From Haladaptatus caseinilyticus (lineage in GTDB: Archaea > Halobacteriota > Halobacteria > Halobacteriales > Haladaptataceae), in NCBI RefSeq assembly GCF_026248685.1, contig NZ_CP111036.1, forward strand, positions 1,550,001 through 1,614,000: a stretch of DNA of 64,000 bases. The letters are read 5' to 3'. Position 1 is the stretch's first letter. The number at the start of each line of letters is the position of its first letter. Below are positions 41,528 through 45,673 of this stretch, in pieces. The notes under the pieces are model-generated. The model did no database searches. It was given only the letters and a program-made list of their open reading frames with translations, and was not told where the DNA came from. The translations under genes were made by a program, and so were the position numbers.

Positions 41528-41691
41528 TTCACCATATCCCCTCCGCGAAATCCGGCGAGGGCGGGATGCTTCCAGACCATCCAATTCGCTTCGAATTTCG
41601 GAATCGGACCGGATAACGTGGCCATCGCTGGGCGTGTCGAAAGCTCGACACCCCGTCGCAAAACCCGGCAGAGATCGGGCGTAACACGTGC

Positions 41692-41717
41692 GTTTAAGAG
41701 TTCATTCGACTAATGTG
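41692..41717 (+). promoter_or_regulatory. Promoter of the MATE transporter
   Basis: GTTTAAGAG at 41692-41700 lies 18-26 nt upstream of the ATG at 41718, fitting a leaderless start and arguing against the longer frame at 41688. Confidence 0.45.
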
Positions 41718-43154
41718 ATGAAACACGTGTCCCGACAAACCGAGAGTCGCGTCGATATGACCACCGGGTCCGTTTCGCCGAAACTGGCGAGTCTGGCGTG
41801 GCCGCTCGTTGTCGGGAATCTCCTCCAAACGTTCTACAATCTCGCGGATATGTTCTGGGTCGGTCGCGTCGGCACCGCCGCCGTCGCCGCGGTCTCGCTC
41901 ATGTTTCCGACCTCGTGGCTGTTCGTCTCGCTCGCGATGGGACTGACTGCCGGTTCCGTCGCCCTCGTCTCGCAACATATCGGCGCTGGCGACGACCGGG
42001 CCGCGGACAACGTCGTGGCACAGACGACGCTCCTCACGGTAATCGTCGGTATCGCCCTTTCGTCCGTCGGGTACGCCTTTCGTCACCCACTGCTCACACT
42101 CGTCGGTGCGGAGGGAGCGGTCTACGTTCAGGCGTTGCAGTACATCGAAGTGCTGTTTTTTTCTATCCCATTCACGTTCCTCTTTTTCGTCTTTCGCGCC
42201 GTGCTCCGCGGGGCGGGCGATACCCGAACCGCGATGTGGTTGATGGTTCTCTCGGCGGGACTGAACGTGGTTTTGGACCCGATTCTCATTCTCGGATTTG
42301 GACCGATTGACGGTATGGGAACGCAGGGGGCGGCGGTCGCCACACTCATAGCCCGCGTGTTTGCGGCCATCGTCGGCGTGTACGTGCTTCTCAGAGGTAA
42401 TTGGGGGATTCAGCTCCGTCCCGAGGACCTCACACCCGATTGGCCGGTATTGAAACGCCTCATCAGTATCGGCTATCCCGCGACTATCGACGGTGCCGCC
42501 CGTAGTTTTGCCGCCGTGGCGATGGCGGCCCTTGTCGCCAGATTTGGTCCAGTGCCGACCGCCGCGTACGGCGTCGGCGTTCGACTGATGTCCGTTTCTT
42601 GGACGATTTCGGGCGCGGTCGGACAGGCCACCGCGACGGGCGTTGGACAAAATCTCGGCGCGAAATCGCCCGACAGGGCCGCCGAAGTAACGTGGAAAGC
42701 GACCGTCGGAACGTTGGGTATCCTCTTTGCCGCGGGTGGGTTGATGGTCGCCTTCCCTGGTATCGCTATGCGCGTGTTCACGAACGACCCTGCGGTGGTC
42801 GAAGAAGGAATCAGCTTCCTTCGGATTATCGGACCGTTTCTGTCGTTCTTTGGCGGGCTGATGGTAATTCAGGGTGGATTCCGCGGTGCTGGGGATACCC
42901 GTGTCGCGATGGCGCTTTCGTTCCTCTCGCGATGGGTGCTCAGGATACCTGTCGCGCTGTTGCTCGCTTACGGGTGGACGCTCCAGTTCGGTCCGATAGC
43001 CCTTTCGGGGATGACGTGGGGAGTCGGTGGTCTGTGGTGGGCGTGGTCGATTTCGGCTCTCGGGTCGTTCGTCGTGGGTGTCCTCTGGTTCAGCCTCGGC
43101 CACTGGCGACAGGGCGTGTTGGAAGAAGAACAAAGGCAGGCAACTGCGGACTGA
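41718..43154 (+). CDS. MATE family efflux transporter
   Basis: The 478 residues contain about 12 hydrophobic helices in two similar halves, typical of multidrug and toxin extrusion transporters that use ion gradients. NLLQTFYNLADMFWVGR near residue 35 and RAVLRGAGDTRTAM near residue 165, with the matching GGFRGAGDTRVAMAL near residue 385, are family signatures. The ATG at 41718 fits the promoter. The substrate is unknown. Confidence 0.92.
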   Translation: MKHVSRQTESRVDMTTGSVSPKLASLAWPLVVGNLLQTFYNLADMFWVGRVGTAAVAAVSLMFPTSWLFVSLAMGLTAGSVALVSQHIGAGDDRAADNVVAQTTLLTVIVGIALSSVGYAFRHPLLTLVGAEGAVYVQALQYIEVLFFSIPFTFLFFVFRAVLRGAGDTRTAMWLMVLSAGLNVVLDPILILGFGPIDGMGTQGAAVATLIARVFAAIVGVYVLLRGNWGIQLRPEDLTPDWPVLKRLISIGYPATIDGAARSFAAVAMAALVARFGPVPTAAYGVGVRLMSVSWTISGAVGQATATGVGQNLGAKSPDRAAEVTWKATVGTLGILFAAGGLMVAFPGIAMRVFTNDPAVVEEGISFLRIIGPFLSFFGGLMVIQGGFRGAGDTRVAMALSFLSRWVLRIPVALLLAYGWTLQFGPIALSGMTWGVGGLWWAWSISALGSFVVGVLWFSLGHWRQGVLEEEQRQATAD

Positions 43155-43204: not shown

Positions 43205-43912
43205 CTATGCGTTGGTGAGGTACCGTTCGACCGACCAGCCCCACACGTTTCGATCGAGCCAGTGGACGCCCCACCACGTGTATCCGTCTTTGTCCGTCGG
43301 CCCGTTCATGATTTCGCCGACCTCTCCGGGCGAAATCGTGGCCACGATGGGTTGGTCGGTACCGGGTTGTTCGCGCGTGTTCAGATTGGCCGTTGGCGTG
43401 ACTCGGTCACCGTCGACGAACCCACCACCGCCGCCACCGCCGTACTGGCTGCGATAGTCCGCAGCAGCAGCCTTCACGTCGTTGACGTACGACCAGCTAT
43501 GGTTGTACGCGTACAGTGCGTCGTCCCAATCCTCGGGTGCGCCGTTGTCGGTGAGATAGTAGGCTGCGGCCGGAATCGCGTCCTGATAGTCACAGATGTT
43601 CGCATAGCCGTCACCGTCGCCGTCGAGGCCGTAATAATCCCACGTCGAGGGCATGAACTGCATCGGGCCGCGTGCGCCTGCCGACGATTCGTCACATCCC
43701 GGTTCGTACTGACCGTGCTGGGTTTCTATCCAGCCGACGCCCGCGAGATACGTCCAGTCAATACCGTAGTTGGCCCCGGTCGCCTGATACTGGTCGAGGT
43801 AATGTGACGGGATGGCACCCGCGGCGGCGGCGGAGCCCGATAGTCCGGAGGCGACAATCGCTGTCGTTCCTGTTGCACCGAGTTTTTTGAGCATGTCTCG
43901 TCTTGATGGCAT
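43205..43912 (-). CDS. Tat-exported lytic transglycosylase with SH3b domain
   Basis: The 235 residues start with a Tat signal (SRRDMLKKLG, then a hydrophobic stretch and SAAAAG). Next comes a transglycosylase domain of the GH23/SLT type: GWIETQHG with catalytic E63, AGARGPMQFMPSTW near residues 78-91, then YNHSWSYVNDV. After a glycine-rich linker, residues 165-235 resemble a bacterial SH3 domain (LNTREQPGTDQPIVATI, GYTWWGVHW). Such enzymes cleave murein, which haloarchaea are not expected to have. The product is therefore probably aimed at bacteria or an unusual polymer. An AT-rich promoter precedes it. Confidence 0.85.
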   Translation of the reverse strand: MPSRRDMLKKLGATGTTAIVASGLSGSAAAAGAIPSHYLDQYQATGANYGIDWTYLAGVGWIETQHGQYEPGCDESSAGARGPMQFMPSTWDYYGLDGDGDGYANICDYQDAIPAAAYYLTDNGAPEDWDDALYAYNHSWSYVNDVKAAAADYRSQYGGGGGGGFVDGDRVTPTANLNTREQPGTDQPIVATISPGEVGEIMNGPTDKDGYTWWGVHWLDRNVWGWSVERYLTNA

Positions 43913-43975
43913 GGTACATCTGTTCCACTAATTTATTAGTTAATATATCTTTTCTAGAACTGTAGTAATATCTCG
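43913..43975 (-). promoter_or_regulatory. AT-rich promoter of the transglycosylase gene
   Basis: The 60 bases before the start are mostly A and T. They hold an inverted repeat ACTAAT-TT-ATTAGT (43927-43940) and TATA-like TATATTAA on the gene strand. The same AT-rich character is seen before the Tat-exported gene near 22.6 kb. Confidence 0.5.

Positions 43976-44155: not shown

Positions 44156-45673
<1,518 letters not shown>

Follow-up and report, generated by a model that had tools for sequence, protein, structure and literature searches.

Haloarchaea have no murein, and antibacterial peptidoglycan hydrolases have recently been reported for archaea (Strock et al. 2025, PLoS Biol 2025, PMC12352652), as a first-pass annotation of the DNA studied here had noted. 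According to that report, Woldo and Danwoldo of Halogranum salarium B-1 are exported proteins (by the Tat pathway for Woldo) of bacterial origin, which combine catalytic and wall-binding modules and have murein as their presumed or shown target. The same report leaves open whether competition, predation or scavenging is served, and its only hint of uptake is an association with an Opp/Mpp-type peptide transporter. Another archaeon, Aciduliprofundum boonei, has a GH25 lysozyme, an antibacterial wall-cutting enzyme acquired from bacteria (Metcalf et al. 2014, PMC4241558).

We analysed a stretch of 64,000 nucleotides from Haladaptatus caseinilyticus (the window; NZ_CP111036.1, positions 1,550,001 to 1,614,000 of the forward strand), in which a gene on the minus strand (43205..43912) encodes a 235-aa exported lytic transglycosylase with an SH3-like module. 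The gene had first been delimited as 43205-43975, a span that includes its promoter. Besides its open reading frame and profile matches, it is supported by orthologues in six named genomes, with 84-88% identity in Haladaptatus litoreus, H. halobius, H. pallidirubidus, H. salinisoli and Haladaptatus sp. DYF46, and 77% in Halorussus aquaticus. Its computed GC3 resembles that of the neighbouring genes, and with a calculated pI of 4.05 the mature protein is strongly acidic, as expected for the salt-adapted exported enzyme that had been proposed. Some 30 bases before the start codon lies a TATA-box-like element, AGATATATTA (43941..43950, minus strand), of a kind ordinary for haloarchaea. An AT-rich element stands at the same place in the orthologues, and other exported hydrolases of the genome likewise have AT-rich promoters, so that the promoter does not set the gene apart, as had been claimed. 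A perfect inverted repeat, ACTAAT-AA-ATTAGT (window positions 43927-43940), was observed after the TATA-like element and before the start codon; it was not seen in the orthologues.

The catalytic domain (residues 33-157; 43442..43816, minus strand) scored above the Pfam gathering thresholds for SLT_2 (E=2.3e-11, 43.9 bits versus 24.3) and SLT (E=2.1e-7, 31 bits versus 21.3), and profile searches matched it to Slt35/MltB and SltB1 with E values in the 1e-17 range (3e-17 for the family profile against Slt35/MltB). The catalytic glutamate is retained in the alignment: Glu63 (codon at 43724..43726, minus strand) stands in a nearly invariant column of 37 rows including bacterial lytic transglycosylases and is aligned with the Glu of E. 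coli Slt35/MltB. The motif MQFMPSTW (residues 84-91; 43640..43663, minus strand) likewise scarcely varies among bacterial homologues. The AlphaFold model (mean pLDDT 75.8, about 90 across most of the catalytic domain) gave a predicted fold that Foldseek matched with a probability of 1.00 to Slt35/SltB and Slt70, the order of matches being Slt35/SltB, Slt70, MltF and g-type (goose-type) lysozyme. The complete transglycosylase domain of the first-pass annotation was thus recovered, and its assignment to GH23 rather than GH103 is less certain: SLT_2 (MltB-like, GH103) scores slightly above SLT, the protein misses the NCBIfam MltB equivalog cut-off by far (33.9 versus 281 bits) and contains an AYN motif, which we take to be typical of Slt70-type GH23 enzymes. 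Its domain, catalytic residue, fold and phylogeny (see below) make it very probable that the exported enzyme is real and that it acts on murein, and they also support a bacterial origin.

The N-terminus of the protein, MPSRRDMLKKLGATGTTAIVASGLSGSAAAA, is of the twin-arginine type (signal region, residues 1-31; 43820..43912, minus strand). Its RRDML motif lies in SRRDML...ATGTTAIVASGLSGSAAAA, with the twin arginine followed by a hydrophobic stretch and an AAAA end, and the twin arginine and signal features are kept in the orthologues. The proposed Tat signal is therefore plain as a conserved motif, but the signal models remained below threshold, clearly for TAT_signal of Pfam (10.3 bits versus 22.7) and only just for TAT_signal_seq of NCBIfam (14.1 versus 16.7). 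Because the signal has no lipobox cysteine, the enzyme is probably released from the cell. A glycine-rich linker (43421..43441, minus strand; low pLDDT at residues 159-163) leads to the C-terminal module (residues 165-235; 43208..43420, minus strand). The bacterial-type SH3 domain announced there was borne out by the fold, this part of the predicted model matching SH3 domains, and by recurrence in paralogues of the same genome at 73-91% identity (91% with the module of an amidase), but not by the Pfam SH3_3 score, which was 14.6 bits versus a gathering threshold of 27 in the window protein and reached 39.7 bits in another paralogue. The module is presumably wall-binding.

Family searches of the same genome returned 12 Tat-type murein hydrolases: the transglycosylase, five amidases (Amidase_2, with SH3-like repeats in three) and six M23 peptidases, of which four are SH3-M23 proteins and two, encoded by adjacent genes, carry paired PG_binding_1 domains, the architecture of Woldo. 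By these counts, which are not a full annotation and may miss further paralogues, this is the highest number in 391 haloarchaeal genomes, the next being 7. The full transglycosylase-SH3 gene was found in 8 of these 391 genomes; high-scoring M23 proteins were present in all eight versus 17 of the 383 others (p=9e-11, to be read knowing that the genomes are not independent), and Amidase_2 in seven of the eight. One and the same SH3 module accompanies transglycosylase, amidase and M23 domains and, in a relative, a glucosaminidase domain. In genome G277 (L118:6619-9027), consecutive exported genes for a transglycosylase, an M23 peptidase and an amidase have nearly identical modules, and on a plasmid of Halocatena salina the transglycosylase adjoins an M23 gene. 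Genome G322 (L124:5958-7196) encodes a single polypeptide with a Tat-type signal, a transglycosylase domain, SH3 and M23, apparently a fusion of two murein-cutting activities. We also noted an 871-aa exported protein (L132:6699-9314) made of an alpha/beta-hydrolase-like N-terminal part, Amidase_2 and several SH3-like repeats. In each of the Halocatena-type genomes G277, G338 and G361, different enzymes have modules closer to one another than to those of the other genomes, the nearest SH3 module lying in the same genome, and this suggests exchange or conversion of modules. Recent gene conversion of the module was not supported for H. caseinilyticus, in which the nearest modules are those of orthologous transglycosylases. 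The strongest computational argument on substrate comes from the set as a whole: murein is the only material that offers all the bonds that its members cut.

Lytic transglycosylases leave 1,6-anhydro-MurNAc ends, and AnmK is the kinase for that sugar; therefore, we looked for AnmK. It was found at G000:C5:23713-24855 (336 bits with Pfam; 463 bits versus an NCBIfam equivalog cut-off of 387), and NamZ (NamZ_N 264 bits, NamZ_C 161 bits) and NagZ (233 bits versus a cut-off of 207) were found in the genome as well. All three belong to a cluster on a 607-kb contig, separate from the contig of the transglycosylase gene. Around AnmK (L155, L156) are genes for an Opp-type peptide ABC transporter, a Tat lipoprotein-like binding protein, a GNAT protein, a HAD phosphatase, a PBP4B-like serine hydrolase, the exo-N-acetylmuramidase NamZ, NagZ, a Tat GH18 enzyme and an IclR regulator. 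The same region (G000:C5:~8000-34500) also holds RidA, an alcohol dehydrogenase, a DgaE-like lyase, an LmbE-like deacetylase, an enolase-superfamily enzyme and a creatininase. The enolase-superfamily gene was left unassigned and not taken for an L-Ala-D/L-Glu epimerase, as it matched many subfamilies, all below their cut-offs. NamZ and NagZ should be cytoplasmic, since they have no obvious signal. Because the best solved relative of AnmK is levoglucosan kinase, its substrate is uncertain.

No canonical MurQ (MurNAc-6-phosphate etherase) scored above the cut-off in the 19 genomes searched, in which only SIS-domain proteins of about 600 aa matched. The pathway thus appears either incomplete or dependent on an unrecognised step for the lactyl ether. 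A conserved gene between those of the serine hydrolase and NamZ (L176:12343-14157; also L155:19207-20001 into L156), which has no Pfam match and a glycoside-hydrolase-like look, is a candidate for a missing step. A search for a promoter motif common to the exported hydrolases and the catabolic cluster gave nothing above shuffled controls, and for this reason we do not claim a shared regulon.

The NamZ/AnmK gene set recurs in many haloarchaea. NamZ was present in 12 of the 56 genomes with exported hydrolases versus 5 of the 335 without (p=9e-8, subject to the same non-independence); by genus, the figures were 8 of 24 versus 4 of 62 (p=0.003). Among the eight transglycosylase genomes of the class sample, only four had NamZ. 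In named genomes, the transglycosylase and a plasmid NamZ gene occur together in Haladaptatus halobius, H. salinisoli, H. pallidirubidus and Halorussus aquaticus. Physical linkage was seen on the Halorussus vallis plasmid NZ_CP100002.1, with the order AnmK, HAD, amidase (exported), serine hydrolase, NamZ and NagZ, in genome G073, where an exported amidase inside the cluster is next to AnmK, and in G277, where the NamZ cluster is flanked by the gene of an exported glucosaminidase that carries this SH3 module. Overall, an exported hydrolase lies in or beside a NamZ cluster in 3 genomes, versus about 0.25 expected with random placement.

We consider it rather probable that the gene belongs to a system that degrades murein, probably to eat it, and that may also kill bacteria. 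Its product would be a Tat-exported, salt-adapted lytic transglycosylase, with a catalytic domain from Actinobacteria and an SH3-like module joined to it within haloarchaea. Outside the cell, this enzyme would cleave bacterial murein at the MurNAc-GlcNAc bond and generate the 1,6-anhydro-MurNAc ends expected from its class, while co-encoded Tat-exported amidases would cut the MurNAc-L-Ala bond and Tat-exported M23 peptidases the cross-links, several of these partners carrying the same module. The peptide ABC transporter would probably take up the fragments, which cytoplasmic NamZ, NagZ and AnmK would then process. Dead or dying bacteria would thus serve as food (carbon and nitrogen), most likely the chief advantage to the archaeon, and susceptible bacteria might also be killed. 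The wider proposition that some haloarchaea have a full murein-eating system derived from bacteria seems to us evenly balanced; it would consist of an exported set (transglycosylase, amidases, M23 peptidases and glucosaminidase, several sharing a targeting module that can be exchanged) coupled to a cytoplasmic pathway (transporter, NamZ, NagZ and AnmK) that functions without MurQ.

The first-pass annotation had instead suggested a simple one-gene weapon. An enzyme secreted mainly to kill competing bacteria, with or without companions, would require no immunity in a cell devoid of murein, and the part of this proposal that concerns killing is plausible: according to PMC12352652, Halalkalibacterium halodurans is killed by two murein hydrolases of haloarchaea that are built differently. 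The exported, redundant and modular nature of the set and the two adjacent Woldo-like M23 genes agree with such a use. The one-gene form of the proposal was not supported, however, as the enzyme is one of 12 exported hydrolases in a genome with a dedicated cluster for the utilisation of MurNAc and anhydro-MurNAc. That this pathway is dedicated, co-occurs with exported hydrolases and is sometimes physically linked to them also argues against a role mainly as a weapon. Because of the 12-enzyme set and the utilisation cluster, feeding on bacterial walls is at least as well indicated.

The location of the gene points in the same direction. It lies between gatB (44156..45673, minus strand), its conserved upstream neighbour, and a convergent MATE-family transporter gene (41688..43154, plus strand), near topA and smc, in all six named genomes and three further ones; both neighbours are mentioned for their synteny, gatB not being part of the system. 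This gatB/MATE/topA setting was the same in every Haladaptatus and Halorussus locus examined, so that the transglycosylase gene is a settled, fixed chromosomal gene of Haladaptatus and not a recent island. A mobile element at the locus was rejected, the neighbouring topA, histidine kinase, MATE and gatB genes being conserved across species. The distribution is patchy across the class, with a plasmid-borne copy in Halocatena salina, but within Haladaptatus it is fixed and syntenic, which agrees less well with the patchy, plasmid-biased pattern described for weapon-like enzymes. The neighbours also include no toxin-like or contact-delivery genes. We therefore favour membership of a set of enzymes that degrade murein for use of the products over a one-gene weapon, and regard secretion mainly as a weapon, alone or with companions, as possible but rather unlikely, killing and eating being compatible roles.

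Transfer from bacteria was supported by the tree that had been suggested as a check. Among 53 catalytic domains, the 14 haloarchaeal sequences formed one clade (100/100), to which Rubrobacteraceae are sister (94/91); the larger group that contains both (97/96) is otherwise actinobacterial. Since a single haloarchaeal clade sits beside Rubrobacteraceae, the tree fits one transfer of the catalytic domain from Actinobacteria, the midpoint root and long stem narrowing the donor to that group only.

Degradation of chitin or another amino-sugar polymer, by a domain akin to the GH23-fold chitinases and an SH3 module binding a glycan other than murein, is improbable. The catalytic domain of a Ralstonia chitinase, which has the same fold, is among the structural matches and GH18 enzymes occur within the NamZ cluster, so that chitin-type sugars could be the main food of that cluster. 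However, murein transglycosylases match best both by sequence and by fold, one of the nearest actinobacterial relatives is annotated as a lytic murein transglycosylase, NamZ is named for its exo-N-acetylmuramidase activity, and chitin contains none of the peptide parts on which the Amidase_2 and M23 partners bearing this module act. House-keeping of the cell's own surface, or descent from a viral lysin, with no role against bacteria is very improbable, for although the genus keeps the gene at one locus, its full copy in only 8 of 391 haloarchaeal genomes shows that the archaeal surface does not generally need it, haloarchaea have no murein (PMC12352652), and the absence of any match among 50,697 phage records or in a viral contig collection speaks against a viral lysin.

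In the open-access literature, to which our search was mostly confined, we found no report of a haloarchaeal anhydro-MurNAc kinase pathway or of murein as a carbon source for archaea, and the hydrolase set, the shared module and the catabolic link appear to be new. Where an exported amidase or glucosaminidase lies within a NamZ-NagZ-AnmK cluster or next to it, the question of competition, predation or scavenging becomes testable in culturable organisms, and such clusters carry further the Opp/Mpp uptake link described in PMC12352652. If the wider proposition of a full murein-eating system is true, these would be archaea that prey on, or live off, bacterial cell walls. Confirmation of the clusters' role would add Archaea to the organisms that use murein, with an etherase step still to be found, and would provide a source of salt-active wall-cutting enzymes.

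Compared with actinobacterial lytic transglycosylases (of Rubrobacteraceae and others), the window protein has 50-57% identity over the catalytic domain and the same Glu and motifs, but the actinobacterial enzymes, which presumably remodel their own wall, differ in their N-terminal regions and lack a matching SH3 module. Its closest solved relatives by profile and fold are the GH103-type E. coli Slt35/MltB and Pseudomonas SltB1, from which it differs by its shorter length, its AYN motif and its low MltB equivalog score. The A. boonei lysozyme shares the passage from bacteria to an archaeon, but has another fold and family and belongs to another archaeal lineage. To our knowledge, no such hydrolase set or catabolic cluster has been reported in A. 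boonei. Bacterial MurNAc operons (the murQ-namZ-nagZ region of B. subtilis and murQP-yfeW of E. coli) comprise NamZ, NagZ, a PBP4B/AmpC-like serine hydrolase and a regulator. The archaeal cluster groups the same functions, with AnmK to handle the transglycosylase product, and differs by the lack of a recognised MurQ, its IclR regulator and its peptide ABC transporter. By the definition of modular hydrolases in PMC12352652 (at least one Pfam catalytic and at least one Pfam wall-binding domain), the window protein has the catalytic domain and a binding domain below the Pfam gathering threshold; it resembles the archaeal modular peptidoglycan hydrolases without falling under the strict definition, which may miss it for this reason. 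It shares with Woldo and Danwoldo haloarchaeal export, the joining of catalytic and wall-binding modules, bacterial origin and murein as presumed or shown target, and is distinguished from them by a catalytic domain that is a lytic transglycosylase rather than M23 or glucosaminidase and by its place in a 12-enzyme set tied to a catabolic cluster.
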